From Gluconobacter wancherniae NBRC 103581 (GTDB lineage Bacteria; Pseudomonadota; Alphaproteobacteria; Acetobacterales; Acetobacteraceae): a stretch of 64,000 nucleotides of DNA. Below the pieces are notes generated by a model. It did not search any database and was not told where the DNA came from. It worked only from the letters and a program-made list of their open reading frames with translations. A program made the translations under genes and the position numbers. Positions 28,791-45,686 of this stretch are shown here, piece after piece. The stretch lies in NCBI RefSeq assembly GCF_007988885.1, contig NZ_BJUZ01000001.1, forward strand, positions 1,116,001 to 1,180,000. The letters are read 5' to 3'. Position 1 is the first letter of the stretch. The number at the start of each line of letters is the position of its first letter.

Positions 28791-28865
28791 GGGCGCATAG
28801 CTCAGCGGTAGAGCACTACCTTGACATGGTAGGGGTCACAGGTTCAATCCCTGTTGCGCCCACCA
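28791..28865 (+). tRNA. tRNA-Val (GAC), attachment target
   Basis: A 75-nt cloverleaf with encoded CCA. Acceptor GGGCGCA pairs with TGCGCCC, the anticodon stem is CTACC/GGTAG and the loop TTGACAT (anticodon GAC). Its last 45 nt recur exactly at 46397-46441, so it is the attachment site of the integrated element. The body differs from the CAC isoacceptor at 10725 mainly in the anticodon arm. Confidence 0.96.
28821..28865. repeat. attL: 3' half of tRNA-Val
   Basis: These 45 bp (from the anticodon loop TTGACAT to CCA) are identical to 46397-46441. After one mismatch, TCGGTCCGG also matches on both sides. Confidence 0.9.
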
Positions 28866-28875
28866 CTCGGTCCGG

Positions 28876-28896
28876 CAGAAAACCAACGGTTTTCTG
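28876..28896. terminator. Hairpin between tRNA-Val and integrase
   Basis: Nine-bp perfect arms CAGAAAACC and GGTTTTCTG around AAC. It sits just after attL and could stop transcription from the tRNA into the integrase gene, or the reverse. Confidence 0.5.
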
Positions 28897-28945
28897 AGAC
28901 TTATGCATTGGACTGCCATCCTTTGCTGTTGAGTCTAACACGCTA

Positions 28946-30040
28946 CTAGCACGCAAATTGAGATTTTACCATTGATCGGGCTGCCACCCGGTCAATGGTG
29001 CTTGCGACCTCGTCAATAGCCTGTTTGGCATTCGCGAGAAAGTCTGGACGTACGTGTACGTAACGACCCGTCGTCCTAAGATTCGGCATGGCGTGCCCCA
29101 TTAGGGAAGCAACCTCAATTTCAGGGACACCACGGGTGATAAGCTCGGTCGCCATCGTATGACGAACCGTGTAAGGTACAATCTCTTGTGAAAGGCATGC
29201 GGCTTCGCGCGCAGCTCGCCATGCGCCATTAATCTTAAGTATCGGTTTGCTCTTATATGTTACGAGATGACCAATCGGCACATCTTCAATCCATGACTTC
29301 AAAAAATTAGGGATTGGAATGCGCGGGCGTCTCTTTTTGGTTCGCATACGTCCTGTAGGATTGAGGTCTATGACACCATGACGCAAATCACACTGCTCAC
29401 GCGTGAGCTGTAAGAGAGCCTCCGGACGAGACGCAGTTCCAATAAGAAGCGCGAGAAACATGCGGAGATGCGGTGGCATATCTACCTCCCAAAGACGAGC
29501 CATCTCTTCAATCGTCATTATTCGTTCGCGTCCACTACCTTCGGGGGGCAACACAATCGGAATTTGACGGTCAATTTCGCCATTCTTCCAAGCCCAATTC
29601 ACCCCCGCAGCAGCGATACCCATGACACGTCGCGTGTAGCCAGCAGAATACCCTTTTCTGCGCAAACATGTCGCAATCCTACGCTGCTCAGCCACGGTAT
29701 AGCTAGCAACAGACGCGCCTGGATCCACATGGTCGAGCATAAGCTCCAATGCCCGTCTATTGGGGCCTGCACTTCGCGTTTTCTCACTATGATTTTTGAA
29801 ATAACGCATAAAAACCGAAGCTAAACTCACCTCAGATGTTGGTTCATTCTTCCTCTTCGCGTTTCCTGTCACATATTCTGCAAGCTTTAGCTGCGCTTCT
29901 TGAAAAACATCTGTGCCAAGAGATGCTCGTTTTGTTTGTCTGGTTTTCGAATCATACCAGCAGGCACACCATGCCTTTGAGTTAGGGCGTTTTCCGAGAA
30001 AGAATTGCCCAATTCGGAAGACGGTATCGGCCTCGGGCAT
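28946..30040 (-). CDS. int: Tyrosine-type site-specific integrase
   Basis: It catalyses recombination between the element's attP and the tRNA-Val attB. It has 364 residues: an arm-type DNA-binding start (AWCACWYDSKTRQTKRASLG), a core-binding domain, then the catalytic domain. Catalytic residues can be seen: Arg in IGTASRPEALLQL, the VRHTMATEL box, His in SLMGHAM, and the tyrosine in TTGRYVHV near the end. The usual first His of the HxxR box is Tyr (PYTVRHT). It lies beside attL and reads toward it. It overlaps the upstream HTH gene by 154 nt in another frame. Confidence 0.93.
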   Translation of the reverse strand: MPEADTVFRIGQFFLGKRPNSKAWCACWYDSKTRQTKRASLGTDVFQEAQLKLAEYVTGNAKRKNEPTSEVSLASVFMRYFKNHSEKTRSAGPNRRALELMLDHVDPGASVASYTVAEQRRIATCLRRKGYSAGYTRRVMGIAAAGVNWAWKNGEIDRQIPIVLPPEGSGRERIMTIEEMARLWEVDMPPHLRMFLALLIGTASRPEALLQLTREQCDLRHGVIDLNPTGRMRTKKRRPRIPIPNFLKSWIEDVPIGHLVTYKSKPILKINGAWRAAREAACLSQEIVPYTVRHTMATELITRGVPEIEVASLMGHAMPNLRTTGRYVHVRPDFLANAKQAIDEVASTIDRVAARSMVKSQFAC

Positions 30041-30213
30041 CTTTCATTCCTTGCAAGATAATCCGTTAGATGAACTTCAGAATAACGTACACGGGCGCGA
30101 ATTTTTAGATAGCCGATCCGGCCTTCATGCCTCTCACGTCGCAGAGTAATGGTAGAGACGCCTAGACGAGATGCTGCCTCACTTTCTGTAAACAAAATAT
30201 AACTCGGCATCAT
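29887..30213 (-). CDS. MerR/excisionase-like HTH protein
   Basis: A 108-residue protein whose first 60 residues form a MerR-type winged HTH: FTESEAASRLGVSTITLRRE, then GRIGYLKIRARVRYSEVHLTDYL. Such proteins next to integrases act as excision factors or regulators of integrase direction. The last 50 residues are encoded in the 154 nt shared with the integrase start and look less conserved, so they may be a by-product of the overlap. The upstream small gene overlaps its start by 4 nt, so three genes form one leftward unit. Confidence 0.65.
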   Translation of the reverse strand: MMPSYILFTESEAASRLGVSTITLRRERHEGRIGYLKIRARVRYSEVHLTDYLARNERCPRPIPSSELGNSFSENALTQRHGVPAGMIRKPDKQNEHLLAQMFFKKRS

Positions 30214-30482
30214 TCGAGGTTTACTCGTAACGCCGCCTCTAAAAGCTTTGCTTCTTTGCCCAGCTCTTTTTGAAGAACGCGCCTTGCTCGTTCGCGAAAA
30301 ACTTGCAGCGACATAGAGAAGACTTCACCATAGCATTCCAAGAATGCCTCATGGATGGACTCATAAGACCATTCTTCTTCACGCAAGCGTCGTAATTCAT
30401 TGGCGTGACGCACAAGAAGCGATCGGGAAGCACGTGCACCTTTCGGAATAGGTAGATCTGGATTTTTCTTAAGAACACACAT
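30210..30482 (-). CDS. Small HTH-like protein of the integrase operon
   Basis: A 90-residue basic protein, not assigned. ELRRLREEEWSYESIHEAFLE, then FSMSLQVFRERARR, reads like the resolvase-type or TraK-like HTH in which a short basic helix scans DNA. Its stop overlaps the start of the excisionase-like gene (ATGA-type), which supports it as real and as first gene of the int operon. It may regulate the unit; the direct and inverted repeats upstream are candidate targets. Confidence 0.55.
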   Translation of the reverse strand: MCVLKKNPDLPIPKGARASRSLLVRHANELRRLREEEWSYESIHEAFLECYGEVFSMSLQVFRERARRVLQKELGKEAKLLEAALRVNLE

Positions 30483-31087
30483 CTCGTTTCTATTTCTTAT
30501 AAGATGTAATCCGCATAACGAGATAATACGTTATAGTTAGTTTTTAATCGTGTAAAGTATATATTATTTCTTTACTTAAAGAATACTTCCCTTCTTCCCT
30601 CATCGTCAGGAGATAATACGCTGCGATCCTGCCTGGGAGATGACTTAATCGTGCTTCCATTATGGATATCGGGGGTCATGATTCGCCGGAAAGAGGTTTA
30701 GCAAAGGCTACTCGTCTTGTTTGCCAAAAGCATGCTAACGCAAGCGGCTTTCTGCAGCAGCCATGGTTTCAGCTCCAGCGGCTGATCAGGGGGGAGAGCA
30801 GAACGTCTGCTCTCGGAAGACGATAATTAGGAGAGCTGCCTTCCCGTACCCGTCATTCATGAGAGTTACGCGCCCTACGCAGTCATTATTGACCTGACAA
30901 CACAATCCAAGGAGGAGACATTGAGGTAAGTAGAGTTTCCATATACTTGAGTCAATGATGTCTGTTTGCCAACTTCTGTGCTAGTCTCCGGCAGCGGGAT
31001 TACTTCTTGACGATCCCAATTGCTCCTTGGGATTTTGACTGTTGTCCAAAAGTCCATGAGGATTGGCAGCTTTAACAGGAGGCTGAT
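30483..31087. other. 605-nt stretch between int operon and protease gene
   Basis: No convincing gene. It contains the GAGATAATACG repeats and, at 30794-30814, a perfect 9-bp hairpin GAGAGCAGA/TCTGCTCTC with a 3-nt loop. A minus-strand open frame (30875-31285) is mostly the shadow of the protease gene. Confidence 0.5.
30515..30620. promoter_or_regulatory. Repeats upstream of the integrase operon
   Basis: An inverted repeat ATAACG/CGTTAT (30515-30534) overlaps one copy of GAGATAATACG (30520-30530); a second exact copy lies at 30610-30620. They sit 33-138 nt before the first gene of the int operon, a plausible place for regulator binding. Confidence 0.35.
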
Positions 31088-31882
31088 TTGAAGGGTGACC
31101 CTAACGAACTGGCGTTGGCTGAAGAACTCACAAGCTTCACTCTGAAGGTCGCCAATCCAATAATCTGGCATGACAGTAAGGCAGGTTGGCCTAGACGTAT
31201 CTACGGTGGCACTTGCTTTTTTCTGCGCTTTGCAGACGGCATTATCGGGGTGACCGCCAGCCATGTGGTCGAATCCCTGCAACACGAGACAGCCCTAAAC
31301 TGTAACATTATCTGCCAAATTCGGACGTCAAAACCAATTGACTTGGCAAGTCTCGTTATTGCCTCCTGCTCTAAGCAAGACATTGCGACTTTCCGAGTTT
31401 CCGATGAACTGGTCGAAGAAATTGGTGCCACAGTCTTGGATTGCAGAGGTGGTTGGCCGCCGCTGGGATCGTTGGAAGGTCGGACTGTGACCTTTTGTGG
31501 TTTCCCAGAAGCCGAACGTACGGCGGCCGAGCCCGGAGCCGTAACTTTGTTCTCATGCGGCGGCTTTGCGATCGTCGATGCGGAAAGTGAAATGGATTTG
31601 AAAGTCACTTATGACCCTGCCAGAGACGAAGAGGCTCCCTGGGCCCCGTGGAAAAAACCATTAGGTTACAATATGTCCGGCTGCTCCGGAGGACCTGTAT
31701 TATCGCACGGAACCCACAACGGCCTGCAAAGATGGTTCGCTATTGCTATGATAATTAGCGGCCCGAGAGGCAAAGGGACCGGCGAAGCTGAGGGGTGGGA
31801 GACTATCACCATGCGCCGCATCAATACTATCAGGCCAGACGGTACCATCAAACACGAGGATTCTGGCTGGCTACCGGGATGA
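31088..31882 (+). CDS. Trypsin-like serine protease domain protein
   Basis: A 264-residue protein with a chymotrypsin-fold catalytic triad in the right order: His59 in GVTASHVV, Asp98 in KQDIATFRV, Ser200 in MSGCSGGPVL. GGTCFFLRFADG is the strand before the histidine. There is no signal peptide, so it is likely cytosolic, unlike Deg-type proteases, and no PDZ domain follows. The start is TTG 31088, since AGGAGG stands 6 nt upstream and no better start is near. In the element it is a lone cargo gene; intracellular trypsin-like proteases occur in phage-defence loci, but a defence role here is inference. Confidence 0.75.
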   Translation: MKGDPNELALAEELTSFTLKVANPIIWHDSKAGWPRRIYGGTCFFLRFADGIIGVTASHVVESLQHETALNCNIICQIRTSKPIDLASLVIASCSKQDIATFRVSDELVEEIGATVLDCRGGWPPLGSLEGRTVTFCGFPEAERTAAEPGAVTLFSCGGFAIVDAESEMDLKVTYDPARDEEAPWAPWKKPLGYNMSGCSGGPVLSHGTHNGLQRWFAIAMIISGPRGKGTGEAEGWETITMRRINTIRPDGTIKHEDSGWLPG

Positions 31883-31950
31883 ATGAGGAAAGATCTATAC
31901 TAGTTTTGCATGAGGTAACTTTGTTGTAAGCATCTGGTATGAGGGCGGGA

Positions 31951-31990
31951 GCTGCCTGTTCCACTTGTTACTGCAAGTGGAACAGGCAGC
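31951..31990. terminator. 17-bp perfect hairpin between protease and P-loop genes
   Basis: Arms GCTGCCTGTTCCACTTG and CAAGTGGAACAGGCAGC around the 6-nt loop TTACTG. It lies between the convergent protease and P-loop genes. There is no U-tract, but the stem is strong enough to act in both directions. Confidence 0.6.
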
Positions 31991-32069
31991 ACAGTCACGG
32001 TTATTTGCCAGGCAAACTGCGAGCAAATGAAGAACAGCTTATGTTCCGGTTTGTACTCGGTTTGCGCTA

Positions 32070-32627
32070 TCAGACGTCCGAATAAAGACGGTATGGGCGT
32101 GAGCGTTTCAAACCATTAACACGGTAAAAATCGTCCAATGCTTTGGTAGAAGTGAGTTCTAACTTTGGCAGACTGATACCGCCAAACAGACGCTTGTTCC
32201 GGTCACGATTGGACCGAGTGACTCCGATAATGTGACGGATCATGCCCCATTTCACGCTGTCGCGGCTACCCTCTAGCCCACCTAGCCGAACCCCCTTAAT
32301 CCAACAGCGCCTTAGATAGCGATAAAGACTGACAGCAGTGGGAACATCAAGAAGGATAAATCCAGTTGCTCGTTCCAATCGTTGTGGGAGCAGAGAAGAA
32401 TAATTACCCTCAATAACCCAAAATGAACCTAAAATTTCCGCGTCATGAAGCGCCTTGAACTCTTCTGAGCTTCTAGAGAGCCAGTCGGTGTGAGGAAGGT
32501 GGCTCAATTGATCGAGATTTACGGTTTTTAGGCCGCGTGCCCGTGATATCGCGTCCGCCAACGTGGACTTCCCGCTGTTGGACGGCCCCATAATGCAAAT
32601 GCGTGGTCCAAGCTTATCAAGCGTCAT
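32070..32627 (-). CDS. P-loop kinase-like protein (adenylate kinase/topology-modulation type)
   Basis: A 185-residue P-loop NTPase. Walker A is MGPSNSGKST (residues 13-22); LDQLSHLPHTDWLSRS is the typical substrate strand after it, and WVIEGNYSSLLPQRL plus ILLDVPTAVSLYRYLRR match the FlaR/DNA topology modulation and adenylate-kinase-related family. These small proteins are thought to phosphorylate small molecules or nucleotides; the substrate is unknown. It is convergent with the protease gene and 163 nt before the VirB5-region genes on the same strand. Cargo of the element. Confidence 0.75.
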   Translation of the reverse strand: MTLDKLGPRICIMGPSNSGKSTLADAISRARGLKTVNLDQLSHLPHTDWLSRSSEEFKALHDAEILGSFWVIEGNYSSLLPQRLERATGFILLDVPTAVSLYRYLRRCWIKGVRLGGLEGSRDSVKWGMIRHIIGVTRSNRDRNKRLFGGISLPKLELTSTKALDDFYRVNGLKRSRPYRLYSDV

Positions 32628-32790
32628 GATTACCCTTCTATGTCTACTTTAGGGAAATCGCAAACTCACCAGAACGGCAACATTGAGGGCGGAAGCAGCC
32701 GTCAATTATGCAATCCTCGAACACTTACCTTCTTGAAAAATTCGCTTCCTTGCGAAAGGTAGCGATAGACAATTATCTTCTTTTCTACCG

Positions 32791-33240
32791 CTATCTGTTC
32801 CCGAATGGCAGAAGCGGCGACATCCCGCCCTTTTCCTCTATCAGCCTGCTCAGATAGCTGACATTACCTTGCTGCATGTCTGCGGTAAGTTCACCAGACA
32901 GAGGATACTCATAACCGTTCAAACGGCGTGCCTGGCTGTACGTCCGGTTGATAGATCGTATCTCTTGGTCAAGCTCCTGAACGCTCTCTCCACCAAATCG
33001 CCGACGCACATAGGGCATCGTGCCTGACACAAGCCCCTTTGCCGTGTAGGTTTCCTGGAGCTGCTCTTGGCACTGAAACTTGCGTGTTAGCGTCATGTGC
33101 CGGCATTGCTTCTGCTCATCGGCTTTTATGGCGGCCTGCGTCGCCCGCCATTCGGGGTCTATGATTTGTGCATGAGCCGTGTGGGGCTCGCCCACACCCA
33201 ACCCGGCCACCACTGTAGCCAACAATAGAACCTGTCTCAT
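32791..33240 (-). CDS. Exported protein of a type IV secretion region
   Basis: A 149-residue protein with a signal peptide (MRQVLLLATVVAGLGVGEP, cleavage after AHA). The mature part QIIDPEWRATQAAIK has three cysteines and many charged residues; LSRLIEEKGGMSPLLPFGNR ends it. I do not recognise a family by name. The start at 33240 lies one base after the stop of the VirB5-like gene, so the two are coupled, which points to a periplasmic partner of the T4SS pilus protein. An open frame reaches 33450, but the upstream part lies in the VirB5 gene. Confidence 0.55.
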   Translation of the reverse strand: MRQVLLLATVVAGLGVGEPHTAHAQIIDPEWRATQAAIKADEQKQCRHMTLTRKFQCQEQLQETYTAKGLVSGTMPYVRRRFGGESVQELDQEIRSINRTYSQARRLNGYEYPLSGELTADMQQGNVSYLSRLIEEKGGMSPLLPFGNR

Positions 33241-33241
33241 G

Positions 33242-34044
33242 TCAGTCACTCGATGCTTCAAAAGCCTGCACCTTTTGCAGATGCTTGAGGTTCTTTTCAG
33301 CAATGTCGTTCTCGATTTCCAGTTGTCGAATATGCTGTTGGAAAGCCATGTCCGCCGTGGTCTGCTGTAACTGCAAGCTGGCGTCGTTCTGATGCAACGC
33401 AGTGGACTGCTCGGCCGCGATGAGCTGCGTGGACGCCCCCACATCATCATCTCCCAAGTCGGCCAGAGCCTCGTCCTGTCGCTGCATCACCTGGGTCGAT
33501 GCCTGACGATACTCGTTCACTGACGCCAGAGATGCAGCCTCCCGCATGGACTGGTTGGTATCACGGGCCGCCCGATCGTATCCGGCATCTGTCGGGCTAG
33601 GCCCATCAGGCTGGCCGCACCTGCCTGGGAGCTGGTGCTTCCCGGTAGATTGTAGGTTCTGGAAAGAACCTCTCTCGCTGCCTGAGAGAAATTCCCACCA
33701 AACCCGTTCAGTGAATAAAGATCACTCAGGTCATCCGTGACGCTCTCAAGGCGGGAAATATCAGAATCCAGTGATCCACCCCCCAATGAAGCGATATTAG
33801 CCAGACCTTTAGCATTCTGTATTTCTTGCGCCGCCTGCTCTAGCTGCGCGTAATACTGCTCTCCCTGCATGTAGTACTGCTGACCTTGTTGCAGGTAGGA
33901 CTTGGCAGCTTCGAGATAGCCCAGGTCGGTACTAACTTCGGTCTTTGGATCGGTCACTATGACCTGCGCTTTTGCATCAACGGATATGCTGCACAGCGCA
34001 AAAATCGTGACTGCCAAAGCACTTTTGAACATATTTACGGTCAT
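33242..34044 (-). pseudogene. VirB5/TrbJ-like T4SS protein, frameshifted
   Basis: The first frame gives a signal peptide (MFKSALAVTIFALCSISVDA) and a long helical region, LEAAKSYLQQGQQYYMQGEQ onward, typical of the minor pilin VirB5/TrbJ, then MGLARQMPD. Near 33590 the sequence shifts to another frame, which continues as YDRAARDTNQSMREAASLAS and a C-terminal coiled coil up to 33242. Both halves together give the length of about 265 residues expected for the family. The start at 34044 has GGAG ten bases upstream; a longer frame to 34110 is open. No other virB/trb gene remains. Confidence 0.7.
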
Positions 34045-34237
34045 ATTTTTTGCACTCCCGCGCATATCCTCAGTCATGTTCATGGCGCGTTTTCTATGTT
34101 CAACCGGCATATTTAAGCGGCAATAAAATACTCACTTAAATACACTTTAACTTTGAGAAAACCGCGCACGAACCGTAACACAGAAATTAAAAAATAAGGT
34201 AGCGTCAAAATACAGATACATTTTTTCAACACCCACC

Positions 34238-34261
34238 ATTAATGTATCGCGATACATTAAT
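34238..34261. promoter_or_regulatory. 24-bp perfect palindrome
   Basis: The half site ATTAATGTATCG is followed directly by its inverse complement, with no spacer. It is about 190 nt before the VirB5-like start and 60 nt before the decamer array. It is a likely dimer-binding operator or part of a replication/partition site. Confidence 0.6.
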
Positions 34262-34320
34262 AATCCTATACTTAATTCGCGCAACACCCCGACGTGAGTG
34301 CGCGGCCAGGACGTGACAGG

Positions 34321-34410
34321 CGTTCAGAAACGTTCGTTTTCGTTCAAATACGTTCGATAACCGTCGATTTCGTTCGGATTCCGTCGATAACCGTCGAAAA
34401 CGTTCGAATT
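34321..34410. repeat. Nine tandem phased 10-bp repeats
   Basis: Nine contiguous units, each exactly 10 bp, start with CGTTCG, CGTTCA or CCGTCG and end with four mostly A/T bases. The unit length equals about one DNA helical turn, so every CGTTCG faces the same side. A related inverted pair CGAACGG-aaag-CCGTTCG lies at 34502-34519. Iteron- or centromere-like in appearance; no spacers as in CRISPR. Confidence 0.85.
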
Positions 34411-34559
34411 TTATATATATTGTTGATTTATAATGGTATTTTTCAAGGAAACTCACCTATCGCGAGGTGGGTTGTATACTTCATATAAAATAAGCGGAAT
34501 ACGAACGGAAAGCCGTTCGAATACTTTATAACTTGAACATCCTATAAAAAATTACTTGA

Positions 34560-36042
34560 TGGGCGGAATCAGGGTGAGGCATCCTGCCCTGGCAGGACCT
34601 CCACGTCCTGCATGCGCGTTGATTGACATACGCGGGGCGGCTGGATGCCGACACCCGATCCTCACATAGAAAGCCGTAATGCGTGCCGGTCGCTGGCACA
34701 CCGAAAGAACCGGCGTTCCGGTTCCTGATTCTGGTCGTCGAAATCGTATCCCTCGTGGTCGATCTTCGATGTCCGCCAAGCATCAGGACCGACCCTCGCC
34801 ATCCTTCCGGTGCTGCACCAACAGCACCCCACCAATCCGGCCCCATGAAAGGAGAGGGCCAGGCTACAAACCACCACCTCAGCACGTCACTTCGTATTGC
34901 CGCCCCAGTCGGGGCACGCCTGCCGTCTAACCATCGGCAAGCAGGGTGCGGCCTAACCAGCCCCACCCGATCTGTTGCTGTAGCCGGATGCCTTTAATCG
35001 GGCTCGTCCGGTTGCAACGGACGCTCGGGGGTGAAACTCCCCCGTTCGATCCAATCCGATCTTTGACATTTCAAGATGAAGATGGGCGACGCGGACACGG
35101 CCACCCCTGCCGGTTTCGGCAAGGGGTGAGCCTGTCAGATGGGAGAAACGGTATCCAGTCCGTTCTACGGGCGGCAAGGGATTGTCGAACGTGTGCCGCG
35201 CAGGTGGGCGACGGCATGGCGGGAAACCGTCATGGGCCTCAGAGGGGAAACCTGGATGAGGCGGTACCAGGGGGCGCAAGCCACTTGGATCGTTGGATAG
35301 CTCAAGCCTGTAACGGCGTTCAGTAGGACGCTGCGCGGAGAGAAAGTGCGAGTGCCGGGGCCTATAGTGTCCCGGTGGGTAAAATTGGAAACCATGATGT
35401 GAGTAAGGGAGGCGCTTTGGATGTTCGGTCCCCCCAAATTGGCCGTGCCCCGGCACGGTCGAAAGGCTCCGAGAGCCTAGCAATCATGGTGAGATGCTCG
35501 CGTACTGCTCGTTAAAATCCGTCTGAATAACGCGGGAAGGTCTAAGGGCTGCTCGGGGTGGTTCCTGAGCGACAGCCTATGACCGGGAGCGGGCTTAGTA
35601 GAGTGAAAATCCCCTTCGCGGTTTATCCGAAGCGTTGGGGAGAGGCAGGGATTTCGAGGGTGGTTCCTCGTCCTGTCAAAGTCTCGAAAGGTCCATGCGA
35701 CAGAGAAGCAATACAGAGGGTGCCTGGCGGCACCCGGTGACGATGTTCCTGGTCCTCGTGGGTGGTACCACGATCGACCGGGGGAAAAGGGAATGTTGGT
35801 CGCATTCCCCTTAAAACTGGCAGTTTTTCAACAATCAGCAATCAATGCACATGCAGCAATAAGGAGATAATCTTATGAGGATGTCGAGTTCTGTACGCCG
35901 GGTAACCGGCAAAACCTGCGGTAAAAGAGGACGCCCCTTTCCTGGGGCCTGGGCGTTGCACAGGTAGTCCTTCGGCTGTCCCGTTGGGAACGGCTGACCG
36001 GTCAACAGGTCCGAGGGAGAAGCATTAATTTGCTTCTCCCTC
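34560..36042 (+). ncRNA. GC-rich hairpin-dense non-coding block, candidate large structured RNA
   Basis: About 1.5 kb, much richer in GC than both flanks and without any frame resembling a protein family. On the plus strand it is packed with local hairpins: TCCTGCC/GGCAGGA near 34582, CACCCCT..AGGGGTG (35102-35128), GGC-GCAA-GCC near 35275, ATGGCGG-GAAA-CCGTCAT near 35216, GGCCGTGC/GCACGGTC (35441-35460), GGCTC/GAGCC (35465-35477), GGGTGCC/GGCACCC (35718-35735), GGGAATG/CATTCCC near 35789. GNRA loops recur. A 12-bp terminator hairpin closes it at 36013-36042. I could not identify a group II domain V or another known class. Confidence 0.4.
36013..36042 (+). terminator. Terminator-like hairpin closing the GC-rich block
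   Basis: Twelve-bp arms GAGGGAGAAGCA and TGCTTCTCCCTC around the loop TTAATT. It marks the switch from the GC-rich block to AT-rich sequence. Confidence 0.6.
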
Positions 36043-36271
36043 TCCAAGCTTGGCTTGCATAACTTCCAATTTTTCCTCCAAGCTATTTATGCCTCCTACA
36101 CGGTTGCACGACGAGGTTCAGGGAGGCCTCCAACTCTCTGAACCTCACCATTTACACGATGATCGTAAGTGCTTTGTGGACGAGCGAGGAGAGGAGTTAC
36201 AGCAGCATTCCATAGCCCTATGCTTCTTAAAGCATTGTAGATGAGAATATTTTTTAGAGTGAGATTTTCGT

Positions 36272-36994
36272 TTGAAATCTAAAAAAGCTCCGAGTAGTAA
36301 AATTGAACCTTCCCCGATGACCCCAGAAAAAATAAAGCAAAATAAAATTAGTAATATTTATCCAAATATAGCGCGATTTTATCTTCGAATTAGTAACAAC
36401 AAGCATGATCAAATAAGGCAGGATAAAATAATAGAGAATATTAGAATGTCAGGATATTATATTGCTGCTATATACAGAGAAAAGCCATCTGGCCCATCTC
36501 CCGATCGACCTGAATTGGGAAGAATGATCTCTGATCTCCAAGCAGGAGAACTAGTAGTCGCAGAAAAAATGAACCGTCTTAGTCACCTTCCATTGGGAGA
36601 AGCAGATAGGCTGGTTCAGGCTATCCGGCAGTATCGAGTTCGGCTTGTCATTCCCGGATTGGTAGATCTATCTGAAGTTCCATCCGAAACTGATGCCGTG
36701 ATATACGGTGACTTAGAAGTCAAACAAGAGATGCTTCTACGACTTGCCCTACAAACCGCGCGGGAAAACTACGAAGAAATGAGGGCGCGTCAAAAACAGG
36801 GTATTGAGCAGGCGAAAGCCTCGGGGCGCTATCGCGGGCGAAAACCAAACCATGAAGTGCACGAGCGCATTATCACTTTGCGCGAAGCAGGAAACAGCAT
36901 CTTGGAAACAGCGCGTTTGATAGACTGCAGCCCGAGCCATGTGAAAAAGGTATGGCTTGAGTATGCGAGCGCAGCGTCTTTAGAAACGGCATAA
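36272..36994 (+). CDS. Diverged serine recombinase (resolvase family)
   Basis: A 240-residue protein. Residues 30-140 match the resolvase catalytic domain: FYLRISNNKHDQ aligns with the ARVSTEDQ motif and keeps the serine, and DRPELGRMISDLQAGELVV matches the central stretch. The arginine motif normally reading DRLGR is NRLSH here, so the second arginine is His. The C-terminal HTH is clear: GRYRGRKPNHEV, ARLIDCSPSHVKKVW. The frame starts at TTG 36272; ATG 36320 is an alternative. It is 145 nt before a typical TnpR on the same strand and is much more AT-rich at its 5' end. Confidence 0.8.
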   Translation: MKSKKAPSSKIEPSPMTPEKIKQNKISNIYPNIARFYLRISNNKHDQIRQDKIIENIRMSGYYIAAIYREKPSGPSPDRPELGRMISDLQAGELVVAEKMNRLSHLPLGEADRLVQAIRQYRVRLVIPGLVDLSEVPSETDAVIYGDLEVKQEMLLRLALQTARENYEEMRARQKQGIEQAKASGRYRGRKPNHEVHERIITLREAGNSILETARLIDCSPSHVKKVWLEYASAASLETA

Positions 36995-37139
36995 GATCAA
37001 GCATTATCGAACCTTATGATTATCACTGTTCATAAAACGGTCATTTTCCGGACACCGCAACAACAACTATTTCCGACTAGCGGAACACTACTTGCTGAGT
37101 TAATATTGCCGTTAAGTTTTCAATGTTCCGGTTTTGTCA

Positions 37140-37712
37140 ATGAATCAGCGTATCGGATATGCACGGGTCTCAACGGAAGACCAGCATCTGCACCTCCAGC
37201 GGGATGCGCTTCAGCAGGCTGGGTGCAGTCTCATCTATGAGGAGGCTGCAAGCGGCAAGAGCACCGTGCGGCCGGAGCTGAAGCAATGCCGGAAGGCTCT
37301 GCGTAGCGGTGACACTCTGGTGGTCTGGCGCTTGGATAGGCTCGGCCGTAGCTTGTCCGACTTGGTGCAGATCGTGGCCGATCTTGAACGCGGCGGTATC
37401 AGTTTTGAAAGTCTCGCTGAGAAAATAGAAACGGGGAGCGCCGCTGGAAAGCTAGTTTTCCACGTCTTTGCCGCCCTAGCTGAATTTGAACGCAACCTGA
37501 TCCGCGAACGAACCCGTGCCGGGCTCGCGGCAGCGCGTGCTCGAGGACGCAGAGGTGGGCGCAAACCCAAGCTGGGGGAGGCGCAGGTTAAAGAAATTAG
37601 GGCTCTCCTGCGTGACCCAGAAATTCAGGTGGCCGACGTGGCGCGTCGCTATGGGGTTTCCAGGACAACGCTGTACAAGCATGTTGGCGTCGTAAAACCA
37701 CGACATCCATGA
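37140..37712 (+). CDS. tnpR: Tn3-type resolvase/invertase
   Basis: A 190-residue serine recombinase. RIGYARVSTEDQ has the catalytic serine, VWRLDRLGRSLSDLV the arginine pair, AEFERNLIRERTRAGLAAAR the E-helix, and GRKPKLGEAQ begins the C-terminal HTH with VARRYGVSRTTLYKH. The ATG at 37140 is chosen since it starts the conserved MNQRIGYARVS. In Tn3-type elements it resolves cointegrates at a res site; the 145 nt before it, with short repeats of TTCCGG, could hold one. No transposase gene is near, so it may serve dimer resolution of an ancestral plasmid. Confidence 0.9.
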   Translation: MNQRIGYARVSTEDQHLHLQRDALQQAGCSLIYEEAASGKSTVRPELKQCRKALRSGDTLVVWRLDRLGRSLSDLVQIVADLERGGISFESLAEKIETGSAAGKLVFHVFAALAEFERNLIRERTRAGLAAARARGRRGGRKPKLGEAQVKEIRALLRDPEIQVADVARRYGVSRTTLYKHVGVVKPRHP

Positions 37713-37858
37713 CTGTGCAAAGCTTTCAGCGCGTCAACGGAAACAGCAACGCTACAAACCCGCAGCAAATATTGAAAATCGTTCCTCTAGCACTGCCAAC
37801 TACACACGGTGCGATTGAGTGCGCAAAAAAGAAGTAAAGACGGTAGGCTATTGTAATT

Positions 37859-40243
37859 ATGAAAAGACACCAAGATCAAAGTCAAATTAAATGGCTATCC
37901 GATTTTATCTGGAACATTGCGGACGATCGGCTGCGTGATGTGTACGTGCGCGGTAAGTACCGCGACGTGATTTTGCCGTTTATCGTGCTGCGACGGCTGG
38001 ATGCTGTGCTTGAACCCACCAAACAGGCAGTGTTGGAGCGCAAGAAGTTTCTCGATGCGAAGGGTATTGCTGAACAGGACGGCGCGTTGCGCATGACGGC
38101 GGGGCAGGCGTTCTACAACACTTCTGAATTCACGCTCGCAAAGCTCAAATCCAGCAGCCAGGGACAACGCTTGCGCGAAGACTTCATTGCTTATCTAGAC
38201 GGCTTTTCGCCAAACGTGCAGGAAATCCTCGCCAAGTTCAAATTCCGCGACCAGATTCAAACGCTGGTGGACGCCCATGTCCTCGGTTATCTGATTGAGG
38301 ACTTCCTTGATCCGGAAATCAATCTTTCGCCCCTGCCGGTGAAGGATGCCGACGGGCGCGTTAAGCTGCCGCCACTGGACAACCACGGTATGGGTACCGT
38401 GTTCGAAGAACTGATCCGCCGCTTCAACGAAGAAAACAACGAGGAAGCAGGCGAGCATTTTACCCCGCGCGATGTGGTCAAGTTTATGGCCAAGCTGCTG
38501 TTCTTGCCCGTAGCCGAGCGCATCAAGTCGGGCACCTATCTGCTGTATGACGGTTCCTGCGGCACCGGCGGCATGCTCACCGTGGCTGAAGAAGCTTTGC
38601 AGGAGCTGGCTGACGAACACGGCAAGGAAGTCTCGATCCACCTGTTCGGGCAGGAGATCAATCCCGAAACTTACGCCATCTGCAAGGCGGATATGTTGTT
38701 GAAAGGCGAAGGCGACGAAGCCGAATACATCGTTGGCGGCGTGGACAAATCCACGCTTTCCGCTGACCAGTTCCGCTCGCGCGAATTCGACTTCATGATC
38801 TCCAACCCGCCCTACGGTAAGAGCTGGAAGACTGATCTGGAGCGCATGGGCGGTAAGGCAGGCTTCAACGATCCGCGCTTCGTCGTCCAGCACGGCGACA
38901 ATCCGGAGTTGAAACTCATCACCCGTTCCAGCGACGGCCAACTCATGTTCCTCGTGAACAAGCTGTCCAAGATGAAGCACAACGTGCCTGCCGACGGCGT
39001 GGGTAGTCGCATTGCCCTTGTCCACAACGGCTCGGCACTCTTCACCGGCGACGCAGGTCAGGGCGAAAGTAACATCCGCCGCTGGGTGCTGGAAAATGAC
39101 TGGCTCGAAGCCATCATCGCCCTACCGCTCAACATCTTCTACAACACCGGCATCGCCACCTACATCTGGGTGTTGTCCAATCGCAAGGCTGCGCATCGTA
39201 AGGGTAAGGTGCAGTTGATTGATGCCAGTCAATGGTTTGCGCCGCTGCGCCGCAACCTAGGCAAGAAGAACTGCGAACTGGCCGAAGCCGACATCCAGCG
39301 CATTCTCGACCTCTACTTGAGCGAAGTGCAGGAAACTGCACAGTCCAAGTGGTTCGACACCGAGGACTTCGGCTACTGGAAAATCACTGTCGAACGCCCG
39401 CTGCGCCTAAAAAGTCAGTTGAAGTCCACCGCCATCGAAACGCTGCGCTTTGTGTCGGGCGATGAGGCCCTGCGCACCGAATTATGGGCTAGGTACGGTG
39501 GTAAGCTCTACACTGATTTCGCCAAGTTGAAGCCGGAGATTGAAGCATGGCTGAAAGGCGACAGCGAGGAGGCGAAGGAGGACGCCGATAGCGGAGACGA
39601 GGGTGGCGAGGATAGTGCGCCGGCCAAGAAAGCCGTGCCGGAAAAACGTCGCAAGAAGCTACTCGATGCCGCGACGTGGAAGCGCGACAAGGCGCTGCTC
39701 GATATGGCACTGCTGATGCAGAAGGATCTTGGAGACGTCGTGTTCGACGATCATAACGTCTTCCGTGCTCAGTTCGACGCAGCGATGAAGGAGCATGACA
39801 AGAAGCTCTCCGCCGCAGACAAGAAGGCTCTCTTCAAGGCCGTGAGCTGGCGCGACGAGGCCGCGCCGCCGGTGATCGCCAAGCGCACGAAGTTGAAGAA
39901 GGGTGATTACTTCGAGCTAGGCTTCGATGGCGCGTATCTGGAAACCGCGGGCAAAGATCGCTTCATTGTCAAGTACGAACCCGACAGCGATCTGCGTGAC
40001 ACCGAGCAGGTGCCGCTTAAGGAACCGGGCGGCATCGAGGCATTCTTTCAGCGGGAGGTGTTGCCGCATGCGGTCGATGCCTGGATCGATGCCGAGAAGA
40101 CCCAGATCGGCTACGAAATCTCCTTCGCCCGCTACTTCTACAAGCCTGCGCCGCTGCGCTCTTTGGCTGAAATCCGCGCCGACATCCTGAAGCTGGAACA
40201 GCAGACTGAAGGCTTGCTGGACAAAGTCATGGGGATGGCGTGA
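37859..40243 (+). CDS. hsdM: Type I restriction-modification DNA methyltransferase subunit
   Basis: An N6-adenine methyltransferase that works with HsdS to protect the host site and with HsdR to restrict unmodified DNA. It has 794 residues. The N-terminal helical HsdM_N domain contains DFIWNIADDRLRDVY, the SAM motif is YDGSCGTGGML (230-240), and the catalytic motif is NPPY (316-319). A long C-terminal extension with an acidic linker (about residues 555-590) makes it longer than the EcoKI type and fits the group of large HsdM proteins. It is more GC-rich than the upstream DNA. It overlaps hsdS by 4 nt (ATGA-type). Confidence 0.96.
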   Translation: MKRHQDQSQIKWLSDFIWNIADDRLRDVYVRGKYRDVILPFIVLRRLDAVLEPTKQAVLERKKFLDAKGIAEQDGALRMTAGQAFYNTSEFTLAKLKSSSQGQRLREDFIAYLDGFSPNVQEILAKFKFRDQIQTLVDAHVLGYLIEDFLDPEINLSPLPVKDADGRVKLPPLDNHGMGTVFEELIRRFNEENNEEAGEHFTPRDVVKFMAKLLFLPVAERIKSGTYLLYDGSCGTGGMLTVAEEALQELADEHGKEVSIHLFGQEINPETYAICKADMLLKGEGDEAEYIVGGVDKSTLSADQFRSREFDFMISNPPYGKSWKTDLERMGGKAGFNDPRFVVQHGDNPELKLITRSSDGQLMFLVNKLSKMKHNVPADGVGSRIALVHNGSALFTGDAGQGESNIRRWVLENDWLEAIIALPLNIFYNTGIATYIWVLSNRKAAHRKGKVQLIDASQWFAPLRRNLGKKNCELAEADIQRILDLYLSEVQETAQSKWFDTEDFGYWKITVERPLRLKSQLKSTAIETLRFVSGDEALRTELWARYGGKLYTDFAKLKPEIEAWLKGDSEEAKEDADSGDEGGEDSAPAKKAVPEKRRKKLLDAATWKRDKALLDMALLMQKDLGDVVFDDHNVFRAQFDAAMKEHDKKLSAADKKALFKAVSWRDEAAPPVIAKRTKLKKGDYFELGFDGAYLETAGKDRFIVKYEPDSDLRDTEQVPLKEPGGIEAFFQREVLPHAVDAWIDAEKTQIGYEISFARYFYKPAPLRSLAEIRADILKLEQQTEGLLDKVMGMA

Positions 40244-41598
40244 TGGTAGAGTATCCGGCCTACCGCGATTCCGGTCTACCATGGGCGGCGAAGGTGCCGG
40301 AGGGATGGCAGGTGCTTCGCAACGGACGGCTGTTCGGCCACCGTGTGGAGACTGGCTATCCCGACCTGCCCATTCTGGAAGTGTCGCTACGCACAGGTGT
40401 GCGCGTGCGAGACATGGAGAACTTGAAACGTAAGCAGGTGATGAATCGCAAGGAGAATTACAAGCGCGCCGTCAAAGGCGACATTGCCTACAACATGATG
40501 CGCATGTGGCAAGGCGCGCTTGGTCCCGCGCCGGTCGATGGTTTGGTCAGCCCGGCCTATGTCGTGGTCAAGCCATTCTCCGAAACCAATAGCGCCTATT
40601 TCAGCTACTTGTTCCGCACTACTGCATATATGCGCGAGGTCAATAAGTTCTCGCGAGGCATCGTGGCTGACCGCAACCGGCTGTATTGGGAATCCTTCAA
40701 GCAGATGCCGTCGCTGGTTCCCCCGCGCGCGGAGCAAGACCAGATCGTCTCCTATCTGCGAGCGCAGGATGCGCACATCGCCCGCTTCATCAAGGCCAAG
40801 CGTGATCTCATCGACCTGCTCATCGAACAGAAGCTGCGTATCATCGATCACGCCGTCACACGCGGGCTCGACTCGAGTGTGAGCCTCAAGCCTTCTGGCA
40901 CCCAATGGCTGGGCGAGGTGCCGGAGCATTGGGAAGTCGTACACATCGGCTCAGCAGTTCAAGTCGTAAACGGTTATCCGTTCGACAGTGGCCTCTTTGA
41001 TGCTGCTGTTGGGCATCCACTAGTGCGTATTCGCGACCTATATCGAACACGCACCGAAGTCCAGTTCAATGGCCCGGAAGTCCTTGAAGCCGTAATCAAC
41101 ACCGGAGATCTCGTCGTCGGAATGGACGGCGATTTTAATGCAGCACGTTGGCTTGGCGGGCGAGCTTTGCTTAACCAGAGAATATGCTGCCTACGCCCAC
41201 ACAAGAAAATCACCACGGAGTATTTGGCGCTCGTCGTCACGAAAGCGCTTAAGTTCATCAATGAACTCACGCCATCTACGACAGTGAAACATCTTTCCTC
41301 CGGTGTCGTGAAGCGACTTCGTTTTCCCATTCCCAGCAAAACCGAGCAATTGCAGATCGTTGCTCATGTTGAGACCGAAACTGCACCAGTCAACGACGCC
41401 ATCTCCCGCACCAAAGATGAAATCAAACTTATCGGCGAATACCGCGATCGCCTGATCGCGGATGCCGTCACCGGCCAGGTTGATCTACGCGGCTGGCAGC
41501 CCGGCCCGGACGATGCCGTCAGCGACGATATGCTCGCCGCACTTGGCGACGATGACAGCAACGAATTCGACGAGGAGGAAGGTAATGGCGAAGACTGA
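40240..41598 (+). CDS. hsdS: Type I restriction-modification specificity subunit
   Basis: It carries the two target-recognition domains that choose the DNA sequence for HsdM and HsdR. It has 452 residues in a duplicated layout: YRDSGLPWAAKVPEGWQVL opens the first half and SLKPSGTQWLGEVPEHWEVV the second, each followed by a TRD and a long conserved spacer helix (QDQIVSYLRAQDAHIARFI and TEQLQIVAHVETETAPVNDA). The two TRDs differ, giving an asymmetric bipartite site that cannot be predicted here. Its start overlaps hsdM, and its last 14 nt overlap hsdR. Confidence 0.95.
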   Translation: MMVEYPAYRDSGLPWAAKVPEGWQVLRNGRLFGHRVETGYPDLPILEVSLRTGVRVRDMENLKRKQVMNRKENYKRAVKGDIAYNMMRMWQGALGPAPVDGLVSPAYVVVKPFSETNSAYFSYLFRTTAYMREVNKFSRGIVADRNRLYWESFKQMPSLVPPRAEQDQIVSYLRAQDAHIARFIKAKRDLIDLLIEQKLRIIDHAVTRGLDSSVSLKPSGTQWLGEVPEHWEVVHIGSAVQVVNGYPFDSGLFDAAVGHPLVRIRDLYRTRTEVQFNGPEVLEAVINTGDLVVGMDGDFNAARWLGGRALLNQRICCLRPHKKITTEYLALVVTKALKFINELTPSTTVKHLSSGVVKRLRFPIPSKTEQLQIVAHVETETAPVNDAISRTKDEIKLIGEYRDRLIADAVTGQVDLRGWQPGPDDAVSDDMLAALGDDDSNEFDEEEGNGED

Positions 41599-44500
41599 CA
41601 CCAGCGAACGCTGGTTCGAGGCGCGCATCGTGCGCGGCCTGACCGGCATTCCCCAACCTGAATACAGCCATGAAACCAAGAATTCTGCCTTCGTCGCCCG
41701 TTCCTGCGGTTATGTGCAGGGGCAAGCGCAGGACTACAACCGCGATGTGGCGCTGGACGTGCCGAAGCTGCTGGCTTTCCTGCAAGCCACCCAGTCTACG
41801 GCAGTGGAAACGCTAAATCTTGCTGCCGATGGTATTCAGCGCACTCAATTCCTGCACCGGCTGCAAGGCGAGATCACCAAGCGCGGGGTGGTGGACGTAT
41901 TGCGCAAGGGGGTAAGCCATGGGCCGGTTCATGTCGATCTGTACCGGCTGCTGCCGACGCCGGGTAATGCTTCCGCTGCCGAAGCCTTTGACAAGAACAT
42001 CTTCAGCGTCACCCGACAGTTGCGCTACAGCAACGATTCCGGCAACGAGCTGGATTTGGTGATTTTCATCAATGGCCTGCCGGTGTTGACCTTCGAGTTG
42101 AAGAACTCCCTGACCAAACAAACGGTAGCGGATGCCATCGTCCAGTACCAGACCACGCGAAGTCCGCAGGAATTACTATTCCAGTCGGGCCGCTGTGTGG
42201 CGCACATGGCGGTGGATGATGCCGAGGTGCGCTTCTGCACCGAGTTGAAGGGTAAGGCGTCGTGGTTCCTGCCGTTCAATCAGGGCTGGAACAGCGGCGC
42301 GGGCAATCCGCTCAACTCCGATGGCCTAAAAACCGACTACCTGTGGAAGCAGGTGCTGGTGAAGGACACGCTGGCTAACATCATCGAAAACTACGCACAG
42401 GTAGTAGAGGAAGAAACGGAAGACGCGAAGGGCAGAAGGCGCAAGACCCGCAAGCCGGTATTCCCGCGCTTCCACCAATTGCGCACGGTGCGTGCCCTCT
42501 TGAAGCGTTCTCGCGCCGACGGTGTGGGCAAACGCTACCTCATCCAGCATTCGGCAGGCAGCGGTAAGAGCAACACTATTGCTTGGCTTGCGCATCAGTT
42601 GGTGGAGCTGAAGACGGCGGCGGACGAAACGCAGGCGCAGTTCGATTCAGTCGTCGTCATCACCGACCGGCGGGCACTGGATACACAGATCGCGCGCACC
42701 ATTAAAGGCTATGATCATGTGGCGAACATCTTCGGCCATTCGGACAGTGCGGACGAGTTGCGGACCTTCCTGCGCCGAGGCAAGAAGATCATCGTCACCA
42801 CGGTGCAGAAGTTCCCGTTCATCCTCGACGAACTGGGCGACCTCGGCGACAAGAAGTTCGCACTGTTGATCGACGAGGCGCATTCCAGCCAAGGCGGCAA
42901 GACCACGGCCAAGATGCACCTGGCGCTTTCCGGTGGTGCAGCTGACGCGGACGATGAAGAAGAAACTGCTGAGGACAAGGTCAACAAGCTGATCGAATCG
43001 CGTAAGATGCTGGCTAACGCCAGCTACTACGCTTTCACCGCCACGCCAAAAACCCGCACGTTGGAATTATTCGGCGAACGGCAGACGTTGGGCGACAAGG
43101 TGCATTACCGCTCTCCTGAGGAACTCACCTATACCACCAAGCAGGCGATACAGGAGGGCTTCATTCTCGATGTGATCGCTAACTACACACCGGTTTCCAG
43201 CTTTTACCACGTGGCCAAGACCATCGAGGACGATCCGCAGGTGGACAAGCTGAAGGCGTTGAAGAAAATCAGGCGCTATGTCGAATCCCACGACAAGGCC
43301 ATCCGCCGCAAGGCCGAGATCATGGTCGATCACTTCACCATGCAGGTGATCGGCGCCAAAAAAATCGGTGGGAAAGCGAGGGCTATGATCGTCTGCAACG
43401 GCATTATGAGAGCCATCGACTATTGGCGAGAGGTGTCGGACTACCTCAAGGAAATCAAAAGCCCGTACAAGGCCATCATCGCGTATTCGGGCGAATCCGA
43501 AGTCGGCGGCGCGAAGAAGACGGAGGCCGATCTGAACGGCTTTCAGAGCAAAGACATTCCCGACAAGCTCAAGCAAGACCCCTATCGTTTCCTGATAGTT
43601 GCGAACAAGTTCGTCACCGGCTTTGACGAGCCGCTCCTGCACACCATGTACGTGGACAAACCGCTGGCGGGCGTGTTGGCCGTGCAGACGCTTTCGCGTT
43701 TGAACCGGGCACATCCACAGAAGGCGGATACCTTTGTGCTTGACTTCGCCGACAACGCCGAAGCCGTGAAGGTGGCGTTTCAGGAGTATTACCGCGCCAC
43801 GATTCAGGAAGGCGAAACCGACCCCAATAAACTGCATGACCTAAAGGCAGAATTGGACGGGCAGCAGGTTTACAGCTCGCAGCAGGTGGACGATCTGGTG
43901 GCGCTGTTTCTCGGTGGAGCAGACCGCGACAAGCTCGATCCCATTCTCGATGCCTGCGTGGCCGAATACAATGACGAGCTCGGCGAAGACGATCAGGTCA
44001 AGTTCAAGGGTAAAGCTAAGGCGTTCGTACGCAACTATAGTTTCCTGGCAGCGATTCTACCTTACGGCCATCCTGGGTGGGAGAAGCTCTCGATTTTTCT
44101 GAACTTCTTGATCCCGAAGCTGCCCGCACCCAAGGAAGAAGACCTCTCTAGGGGCGTGTTGGACGCCATCGATATGGACAGCTACCGTGCGCAGGAACAG
44201 GCGGCGATGAAGATGTCGATGGACGACGCGGATGCCTTTGTCGAACCGCTGCCGCCTAGTGATGGCGGTGGCACGGGCGAGCCGGAACTGGACAGGCTCT
44301 CGAACATTGTGAAGCAGTTCAATGATCTGTTCGGCAACATCGAATGGCACGACGCCGACAAGATCAAGCAGGTTATCACCGAGGAAATCCCGGTGCGCGT
44401 GGCACGTGACAAGGCCTACCAAAACGCACAGGCCAACTCCGGCAAGCAGAACGCGCGGTTGGAGCACGACAAGGCGCTCAATCGCGTGGTGTTGGAATTG

Positions 44501-44626
44501 CTTGACGACCACACTGAACTGTTCAAGCAGTTCAGCGACAACGCAAATTTCAAACGCTGGCTTGCTGGCATGGTATTCGATGCAACTTACCGTTCTGGAG
44601 GAGCGTCGCCTGAACCGACGCTGTAA
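41585..44626 (+). CDS. hsdR: Type I restriction endonuclease motor subunit
   Basis: An ATP-driven DNA translocase-nuclease that cuts DNA lacking the HsdMS methyl mark. It has 1013 residues. The N-terminal PD-(D/E)xK nuclease is seen in NELDLVIFINGLPVLTFELK, Walker A in HSAGSGKSNT, motif II in LIDEAHSSQ, motif III in FTATPKTRT, and the second RecA domain in ANKFVTGFDEPLLHTMYVDK and QTLSRLNRAHP. The start at ATG 41585 (MAKTDTSERW) follows an AGGAAGG site and overlaps hsdS; an open frame reaches 41462 but lies in hsdS. The gene appears intact. Confidence 0.95.
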   Translation: MAKTDTSERWFEARIVRGLTGIPQPEYSHETKNSAFVARSCGYVQGQAQDYNRDVALDVPKLLAFLQATQSTAVETLNLAADGIQRTQFLHRLQGEITKRGVVDVLRKGVSHGPVHVDLYRLLPTPGNASAAEAFDKNIFSVTRQLRYSNDSGNELDLVIFINGLPVLTFELKNSLTKQTVADAIVQYQTTRSPQELLFQSGRCVAHMAVDDAEVRFCTELKGKASWFLPFNQGWNSGAGNPLNSDGLKTDYLWKQVLVKDTLANIIENYAQVVEEETEDAKGRRRKTRKPVFPRFHQLRTVRALLKRSRADGVGKRYLIQHSAGSGKSNTIAWLAHQLVELKTAADETQAQFDSVVVITDRRALDTQIARTIKGYDHVANIFGHSDSADELRTFLRRGKKIIVTTVQKFPFILDELGDLGDKKFALLIDEAHSSQGGKTTAKMHLALSGGAADADDEEETAEDKVNKLIESRKMLANASYYAFTATPKTRTLELFGERQTLGDKVHYRSPEELTYTTKQAIQEGFILDVIANYTPVSSFYHVAKTIEDDPQVDKLKALKKIRRYVESHDKAIRRKAEIMVDHFTMQVIGAKKIGGKARAMIVCNGIMRAIDYWREVSDYLKEIKSPYKAIIAYSGESEVGGAKKTEADLNGFQSKDIPDKLKQDPYRFLIVANKFVTGFDEPLLHTMYVDKPLAGVLAVQTLSRLNRAHPQKADTFVLDFADNAEAVKVAFQEYYRATIQEGETDPNKLHDLKAELDGQQVYSSQQVDDLVALFLGGADRDKLDPILDACVAEYNDELGEDDQVKFKGKAKAFVRNYSFLAAILPYGHPGWEKLSIFLNFLIPKLPAPKEEDLSRGVLDAIDMDSYRAQEQAAMKMSMDDADAFVEPLPPSDGGGTGEPELDRLSNIVKQFNDLFGNIEWHDADKIKQVITEEIPVRVARDKAYQNAQANSGKQNARLEHDKALNRVVLELLDDHTELFKQFSDNANFKRWLAGMVFDATYRSGGASPEPTL

Positions 44627-44951
44627 CTCAAATTTTGTTCCCCCGATCTGTTGGGGCGCCGGGGACTTAGGCTCTCTTGTTCCCTTTATGATCAACGCTC
44701 TAGAGGTATCCGAATTCAGCGACGAAAAACCAAAGCTATGCTTAGGTGACGGCGAGACCATATATTCAGCTAAGCAGAAATTGCATCCTCCATACGAAGG
44801 GTAGATTGGTATTTTTCTTGGTATTTGTGATGGTTGTGACCTTAAGTGATTGATTTAAAATTGAATTTTATCAATGTCTATAATGGAGTGGGAATGATGA
44901 ATTCTATTCATAGTTCCTAATCGGCCTCCTGTAATCGTAAGAACTCTCTAT
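44627..44951. other. Gene-free stretch after hsdR
   Basis: About 325 nt, AT-rich from 44810. A plus-strand frame runs into it to 44804 but begins inside hsdR and resembles nothing. No repeat or RNA gene is seen. Confidence 0.5.
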
Positions 44952-45357
44952 CTACTCGTTCAGGGAACGCCGCCGGAGCCATATCGCAAACGCCTCTTCC
45001 TGCATTGTATTCTGCCAGAGGCAAGTGCCACCATGGCCTCGACCGCGTCCGGGGCGCTGACCTGCACACGCGTTCCATTCAGCCGAAGGGAAAGAACGCA
45101 GCAACTCCAGGTTGTCTGCTTGTTGGCATCATTGAAGGGATGATTACGCGCAATGCCACAAGCGTAGGCAACCGCCAGAGTCGCGATGTCCGGCTTCGGC
45201 GCTTCGACATAGTGCCAACGGTTTTCTGCGCGGCCCAACGCGCTATGCAGCAAATCTTCGCTTTTGAGAGGCCGTGGGTTCCGCCGTATTCCCTCAGAGC
45301 CTGCTCATGCATGAACAGCACTACATCAAGCTCCAGAAACTCAGGCGCATCGTCCAT
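44952..45357 (-). pseudogene. Doc/Fic-family toxin, frameshifted
   Basis: The reading starts as MDDAPEFLELDVVLFMHEQA, typical of Doc (death-on-curing), which phosphorylates EF-Tu. After GGTHGL an extra TC in a CTCTC run (near 45268) breaks the frame; the continuation LLHSALGRAENRWHYVEA, AYACGIARNHPFNDANKQTT lies in a second frame. A further shift near 44990-45000 is needed to reach the expected end EEAFAIWLRRRSLNE. The catalytic motif HPFxxGNKRT appears as HPFNDANKQT, so the last arginine is Gln. It is coupled to the antitoxin gene by a TGATG overlap. Confidence 0.82.
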
Positions 45358-45584: not shown

Positions 45585-45591
45585 GAGCTTA

Positions 45592-45620
45592 GCTCCGTAT
45601 TACGTTACGTAATACGGAGC
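45592..45620. promoter_or_regulatory. Palindromic operator of the toxin-antitoxin operon
   Basis: Perfect 14-bp arms GCTCCGTATTACGT and ACGTAATACGGAGC around a single T. It is 8 nt before the antitoxin start, so binding there would block transcription or initiation. It fits autoregulation by the AbrB-type antitoxin. Confidence 0.7.
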
Positions 45621-45686
45621 AGGGCTACGTCAAAGGTGACAAGCCCCAAAAGCCCTTTAGCAGTGCTGCTCAGACAGAATTGCGGG

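Follow-up and report, generated by a model that had tools for sequence, protein, structure and literature searches.

The closest described relatives of the RNA reported here are the circularly permuted (CP) group II ribozymes, also called T-large RNAs, a rare class with a swapped domain order (Roth, Weinberg, Vanderschuren, Murdock and Breaker, 2021; PMC8637638). According to the parts of that paper available to us, members of the class back-splice in vitro to give a circle and a branched RNA (five species made products), and they share the splice-site motifs NU and GGGCG and a linker of 15–86 nt, which measures 32 nt in plasmid pPNAP05. The same parts leave the role of these ribozymes open and describe the orphan protein of the class, AcpG, as not universal among its members. 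The main text of the paper never uses 'secretion' or 'mobiliz', and has 'conjug' and 'relaxase' a single time each, within the title of a reference. A literature search, in which that paper alone was seen in text, found neither a later answer on the role of the class nor another account of AcpG or its association with T4SS genes.

The window analysed here is a 64,000-nt stretch of Gluconobacter wancherniae NBRC 103581 (NZ_BJUZ01000001.1, positions 1,116,001–1,180,000), and coordinates below refer to it. We put at about 95% the probability that the block at 34560–36042 encodes a CP group II ribozyme capable of the splicing chemistry of the class; the chemistry is attributed to this copy because its conserved anatomy matches that of relatives active in vitro. 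The RNA is thus a further member of an already described, rare class (Roth et al., 2021). Three observations of a first-pass annotation held: the block is GC-rich between AT-rich flanks (GC 0.589 against 0.378 at 34100–34559 on the left and 0.384 at 36043–36500 on the right), it encodes no protein, and it is structured on the plus strand. Comparison with plasmid pGE3 (77% identity, 1.2 kb) revealed no coding signal: mismatches are spread evenly over the codon phases (66/81/79) and 28 of the 34 indels are not multiples of three, because of which the ORFs of at least 100 aa that overlap the block are best read as chance. The plus-strand fold of 34905–35700 beats dinucleotide shuffles with a z-score of −4.68, compared with −1.80 for the minus strand (20 shuffles each).

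The same interval, 34905–35700, approximately delimits the ribozyme core, its ends being the last columns that align outside Acetobacteraceae, among the matches listed, in an alignment with nine relatives; all RNA features lie on the plus strand. The fold places two P1/P2-like hairpins at the 5' end, here named a (34918–34942) and b (34944–34968), whose loops carry UAACCA at 34928–34933 and 34954–34959, respectively. Domain V (D5), with its AGC triad, lower helix and upper helix, sits at 34982–35013, 5' of domain I (D1). In pBN5 the triad of the corresponding domain (locus L040, 14045–14120) reads AGU, and a second change compensates for this. Domain VI (D6) and the 3' splice site (AAU^C) occupy 35019–35055 and, like D5, were delineated from alignment and covariation. 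By analogy with the paper, the branch point would be A35049, the seventh base from the splice site, which is invariant in 26 of 26 aligned members. The 28-nt linker at 35056–35083, recognized from the sequence and the linker rule, is the predicted RNA circle; its length falls inside the published range, and the same rule applied to pPNAP05 as a control gave 32 nt by hand count, equal to the published value. At 35084–35088 the class motif GGGCG marks the 5' splice site and the start of D1; of 36 loci, 35 have GGGCGAC where it is expected, and the remaining one (L032) is cut by its contig end. D1, delimited by alignments, extends approximately over 35084–35420 and includes AGCUCAAGC at 35299–35307 and GAGUAAGGGAG...GCUUUGGA at 35401–35421. 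Domains II–IV probably fill 35421–35700, judging from the fold and loop pairs and with their order assumed from the class. The limits of D1–D4 were set by homology, and covariation was counted for D5 and D6. Motifs and alignment of the downstream D1–D4 part are common to pPNAP05 and to relatives in Comamonas and Acinetobacter, two genera also used by Roth et al. (2021) in the parts of their paper at hand; the window RNA is directly homologous to that of pPNAP05, a published class member.

Covariation among homologues, a check proposed by the first-pass annotation, bears out D5 and D6. In an alignment of 23 members, the 13 pairs of D5 and proximal D6 are formed in 99.7% of cells, with double-sided changes in 11 of the 13 pairs and 48 double-changed cells. 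The two D5 helices are formed in 99.3% and 100% of cells and eight of ten D5 pairs are double-changed; the proximal D6 pairs are always formed and all three are double-changed. The third of these is A-U in the window, a double change from the commonest G-C. The distal D6 helix, with six pairs, is formed in all 22 distinct hairpins, and pairing registers that were slid along the alignment left 25–48% of cells paired. None of 500 shuffles, which ignore the relatedness of members, scored as high on four of five covariation measures, and 54 of 500 did so on the fifth, the number of further pair types. Two hairpins in 35421–35700 have UGGUU in their loops (35559–35563 and 35661–35665) and can pair with the upstream AACCA loops, a pattern match that suggests possible P2–D2 loop–loop contacts. 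Several other loci have UGCCA/UGGCA or AGCCA/UGGCU, as judged by eye in 24 loci, seven of which are without a downstream partner by pattern. For EBS1–IBS1, compared in 29 sequences, the best-paired columns beat shuffled partners weakly or not at all.

These results change the first-pass picture of the RNA in several respects. No convincing domain V had been recognized, and the covariation-backed candidate at 34982–35013 fills that gap: it did not show up near the 3' end because the ribozyme is circularly permuted, which puts D5 upstream of D1. The suggestion of an ORF-less group II-like intron was right in that the RNA is group II-derived and protein-free, but wrong as to its architecture. In the recommended Rfam/Infernal scan, no family reached the gathering score in the window except for three tRNAs, although at E ≤ 10 there was a weak D5 match (RF04336, 34972–35018, E 3.6) that overlaps the proposed D5. 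The whole 1.5-kb block had been taken for one RNA, and of this the structured core stands; the stretches 34560–34904 and 35700–36042 align with no members beyond Acetobacteraceae, among the matches listed, and for that reason may be leader and tail rather than parts of the fold. The closing stem is real, a perfect hairpin at 36013–36042, but no T run follows it, so that the label 'terminator' is unsupported. Plasmid pKHC110_1 carries a second copy, 73% alike, of the stretch around this 3' hairpin (L006, 1494–1631).

By the chemistry of its relatives, the transcript would fold so that the 5'-lying D5 and D6 dock into the 3'-lying D1–D4. The 2'-OH of A35049 would attack the phosphate before G35084, the 5' splice site, which here lies downstream of D6, and the freed 3' end would then attack the bond after U35055. 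The 28 nt at 35056–35083 would leave as a circle, and a T-shaped branched RNA with all six domains would remain.

The conserved unit (34423–36046) is 97–98% identical on the Novacetimonas plasmid pKHC110_1, and pGE3 matches 34620–35828 at 77%. Copies 99% and 95% identical are present in two related genomes, and a 97% identical one on a small plasmid. Homologues detected by blastn, with no gene listed beneath them, occur in 18 plasmids, in four members of a set of 100 related genomes (one of the four being that of the window) and in 21 of 5426 E. coli genomes, which contribute 22 plasmid records. None was found by blastn in phage records; the first-pass idea of a new phage or plasmid RNA thus survives in its plasmid habitat but neither in its novelty, the class being already described, nor in a phage connection. 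A pattern from the most conserved stretch retrieved 25 loci in species genomes (24 titled Proteobacteria and one Mycobacterium) and none in viral contigs. The Pseudoalteromonas plasmid pMtBL carries both a CP group II RNA by profile (L045, 3112–3595) and AcpG.

In 10 of 37 loci, the stretch examined includes a coupling-protein or VirB11 gene. Five plasmids of four types carry the RNA and AcpG together with T4SS genes and a coupling protein, and no relaxase is annotated in the parts read: pEc631_3 (26 of 30 kb read) and pFHI_NMBU_11_03 of E. coli, pGDIPal5I (21 of 39 kb read, typed MPF_T), pBN5 and Pandoraea pPO70-4, whose RNA is interrupted. In this last plasmid an IS256 element splits the CP RNA (L041, 20928–22905). 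The coupling protein from E. coli matches TraD weakly, with a score that falls short of the curated cut-off. Four relaxase models had no match in the 10 searchable of 12 requested records; MOBH, MOBC and MOBT were outside this set, and the PF01076 control gave no match over the cut-off. MOB-suite assigned as non-mobilizable 18/18, 34/35, 29/31 and 18/18 of the plasmids matching the RNA (strongly overlapping sets, the last three of which contain many short matches, 4–16% of the query), as well as 31/31 and 16/19 of the AcpG plasmids, which overlap with the RNA sets. Mobilizable plasmids were three of the 19 Acinetobacter AcpG plasmids and, in two RNA-match sets, one of 35 and two of 31. MOB-suite may miss unknown relaxases. 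The best 5000 records for pBN5-like VirB4 comprise 4376 conjugative, 180 mobilizable and 444 non-mobilizable plasmids, and AcpG plasmids are the four best matches among them. One Xanthomonas plasmid, whose T4SS genes are similarly ordered, has a MOBF relaxase and neither CP RNA nor AcpG in 45 of its 77 kb; an E. coli RepL plasmid related to the 3-kb CP plasmid has mobA, and the profile found no CP RNA on it. Two plasmids of E. coli FHI_NMBU_11, one of 3 kb and one of 34 kb, have the RNA in common (719 nt, 95.7%), as well as an adjacent gene at 74%; such a pair of small and large CP plasmids is found in one of the 21 genomes of this species. The 3-kb plasmid also has one copy of a 178-bp element (L048, 797–974), and the 34-kb plasmid (L047) has three, at 78–80%.

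The AcpG proteins of the relatives have a putative palm and thumb fold by prediction, with 8t2s_D, 8t2r_D and 8fli_B as top structure matches; the finger region is apparently missing, the aligned part of 8t2s_D beginning at residue 104. By this prediction, AcpG would resemble a group II maturase/reverse transcriptase in its fold but be devoid of the catalytic motif: YxDD occurs in two of 16 sequences (L034 and L021) and is not conserved. Searches of Pfam at E ≤ 10 with 16 members and of a PDB profile detected no sequence similarity to RVT or GIIM, and hhalign against an alignment of two IEPs gave P 0.14. A structural ancestry of AcpG in the maturase/Prp8 lineage appears likely. In Novacetimonas C110, the window's RNA is on one plasmid and AcpG on another.

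The company of the CP RNAs may point to help for plasmids moving between bacteria. Our leading guess, a tentative one, is that the branched RNA and the maturase-like AcpG replace the relaxase in plasmid transfer; put more generally, CP group II ribozymes might, with considerable doubt, supply the RNA half of a system that transfers DNA without a relaxase. We infer here an action of the branched RNA on DNA, assistance by AcpG and transfer as the purpose. AcpG, a catalytically dead, Prp8-like relative of maturases, would fold or escort the branched ribozyme, which would cut plasmid DNA by reversing the second splicing step on it. The ribozyme's own 3' end would stay bonded to the DNA 5' end, and a 3'-OH would be left free for replication; both are functions of a relaxase. 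The RNA–DNA would reach the type IV channel by way of the neighbouring coupling protein, and small plasmids and islands such as the window's would be satellites with the RNA as a mobilization tag. Three leads in this argument look new, namely the maturase-like fold of AcpG, the coupling-protein and VirB11 neighbours, and the nearly constant typing of the plasmids as relaxase-less.

The strongest counterpoints to transfer are T4SS plasmids that lack both relaxase and RNA, and RNA plasmids that lack an annotated T4SS. Proteus pHJ90-cfr encodes a VirB4 and a T4SS that are related; it is classed as non-mobilizable, and profiles detected neither CP RNA nor AcpG on it. Of 138 other records with VirB4 like that of the E. 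coli plasmid, 40 are typed non-mobilizable as well. Several CP or AcpG plasmids carry no annotated T4SS (annotation is incomplete, and one record was read in part); of the AcpG plasmids, L039 and L043 have no CP RNA by profile and L044 has a weak match. The small-plasmid part of the case is weak because 100 of 174 RepL plasmids are non-mobilizable anyway; pColZ, which has the RepL backbone, lacks CP RNA as well as any annotated mob gene. If the transfer reading is true, a ribozyme and not a protein would start conjugative DNA processing in this natural system, and the locus and its relatives suggest a testable role in conjugation.

The surroundings of the window copy are also those expected if the same ribozyme were a stranded, functionless remnant of a plasmid integrated into the chromosome, which we regard as unlikely. 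The RNA lies in a 17.6-kb genomic island in tRNA-Val (28821–46458), bounded by 62-nt direct att repeats that are 94% alike (28821–28882 and 46397–46458) and equipped with a tyrosine integrase (28946–30040, minus strand), two resolvases and a type I restriction–modification (R-M) system. A TrbJ-like ORF (33517–34110, minus strand; TIGR02780, E 2e-4, below the curated cut-off) is divergent from the RNA and falls into one cluster with a hypothetical protein whose gene adjoins virB4 in pGDIPal5I. It has 197 aa, against 292–341 aa in four of the six clustered ORFs of relatives (the other two have 270 and 134 aa), in line with a remnant. Searches of the window's genome found no VirB4, no MobA/MobL relaxase and no AcpG, the last being a weak empty answer from a search that had no positive control genome. 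With neither AcpG nor VirB4 found, the window copy would act only with another element's factors or be a stranded passenger. Yet D5, D6, the branch A and the splice motifs are intact, the double change to A-U in proximal D6 preserves pairing, and the close copies in two related genomes and on a small plasmid likewise speak against a dead remnant. At 34321–34400, just upstream of the RNA, 10-bp direct repeats follow one another (three 30-nt copies up to 34380; by eye, about eight units) and resemble a partition or operator site. The stretch 31088–31882 (plus strand) has a weak PADLOC similarity to LmuA (E 7e-6).

Less probable still is that the RNA serves plasmid replication, copy number or partition and not transfer. 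Some plasmids, the smallest of 3 kb, carry the RNA and little besides a rep gene, and in pPNAP05 it lies near an origin (Roth et al., 2021, in the parts available). The RNA, however, accompanies differing replication genes (RepL, TrfA and RepC), two RepL plasmids are without it by profile, and the same source reports that pTT8 replicates with nearly the whole ribozyme deleted, with the caveat of a chromosomal copy. A similarly low probability goes to a regulatory or defence ribozyme, whose branched product would use reverse splicing to cleave nucleic acids, either foreign or of the host. This was suggested by Roth et al. (2021), and what we have of their discussion supports it with group II lariat chemistry on RNA and DNA; nevertheless, no defence genes, as judged from annotated-gene similarity, are among the ORF clusters found in at least two of 37 loci, and the type I R-M genes of the window are outside these clusters. 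A canonical ORF-less group II intron, in which the domains run from D1 to a 3'-terminal D5 and D6, or another ornate RNA, such as the HEARO type that the first-pass annotation proposed, would fit the size and density of structure, but is hardly credible given that D5–D6 lies upstream of D1, the reverse of introns, and that HEARO, GOLLD, ROOL and OLE have no match at the Rfam gathering score.

Among known systems, group II maturases/reverse transcriptases differ from the AcpG of the relatives (the window has none) in that AcpG shows no detected sequence similarity to them, no conserved YxDD and apparently no fingers; the two may be alike in the predicted palm and thumb fold. A canonical bacterial group II intron resembles the window RNA in having D5, D6 and, by inference, branch chemistry, whereas the window RNA is permuted, with splice sites inside and no intron-encoded protein. 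From the CP group II RNAs, as far as the available parts of PMC8637638 describe them, the window copy departs in its AACCA/UGGUU possible loop pairs, in the lack of a detected AcpG gene in its genome and in the size of the conserved unit in acetic acid bacteria (∼ 1.6 kb, compared with a class average of ∼ 900 nt). It shares with them the order D5–D6–linker–D1, the GGGCG and NU motifs, the branch A, the absence of an internal ORF, the plasmid habitat and a linker within 15–86 nt.
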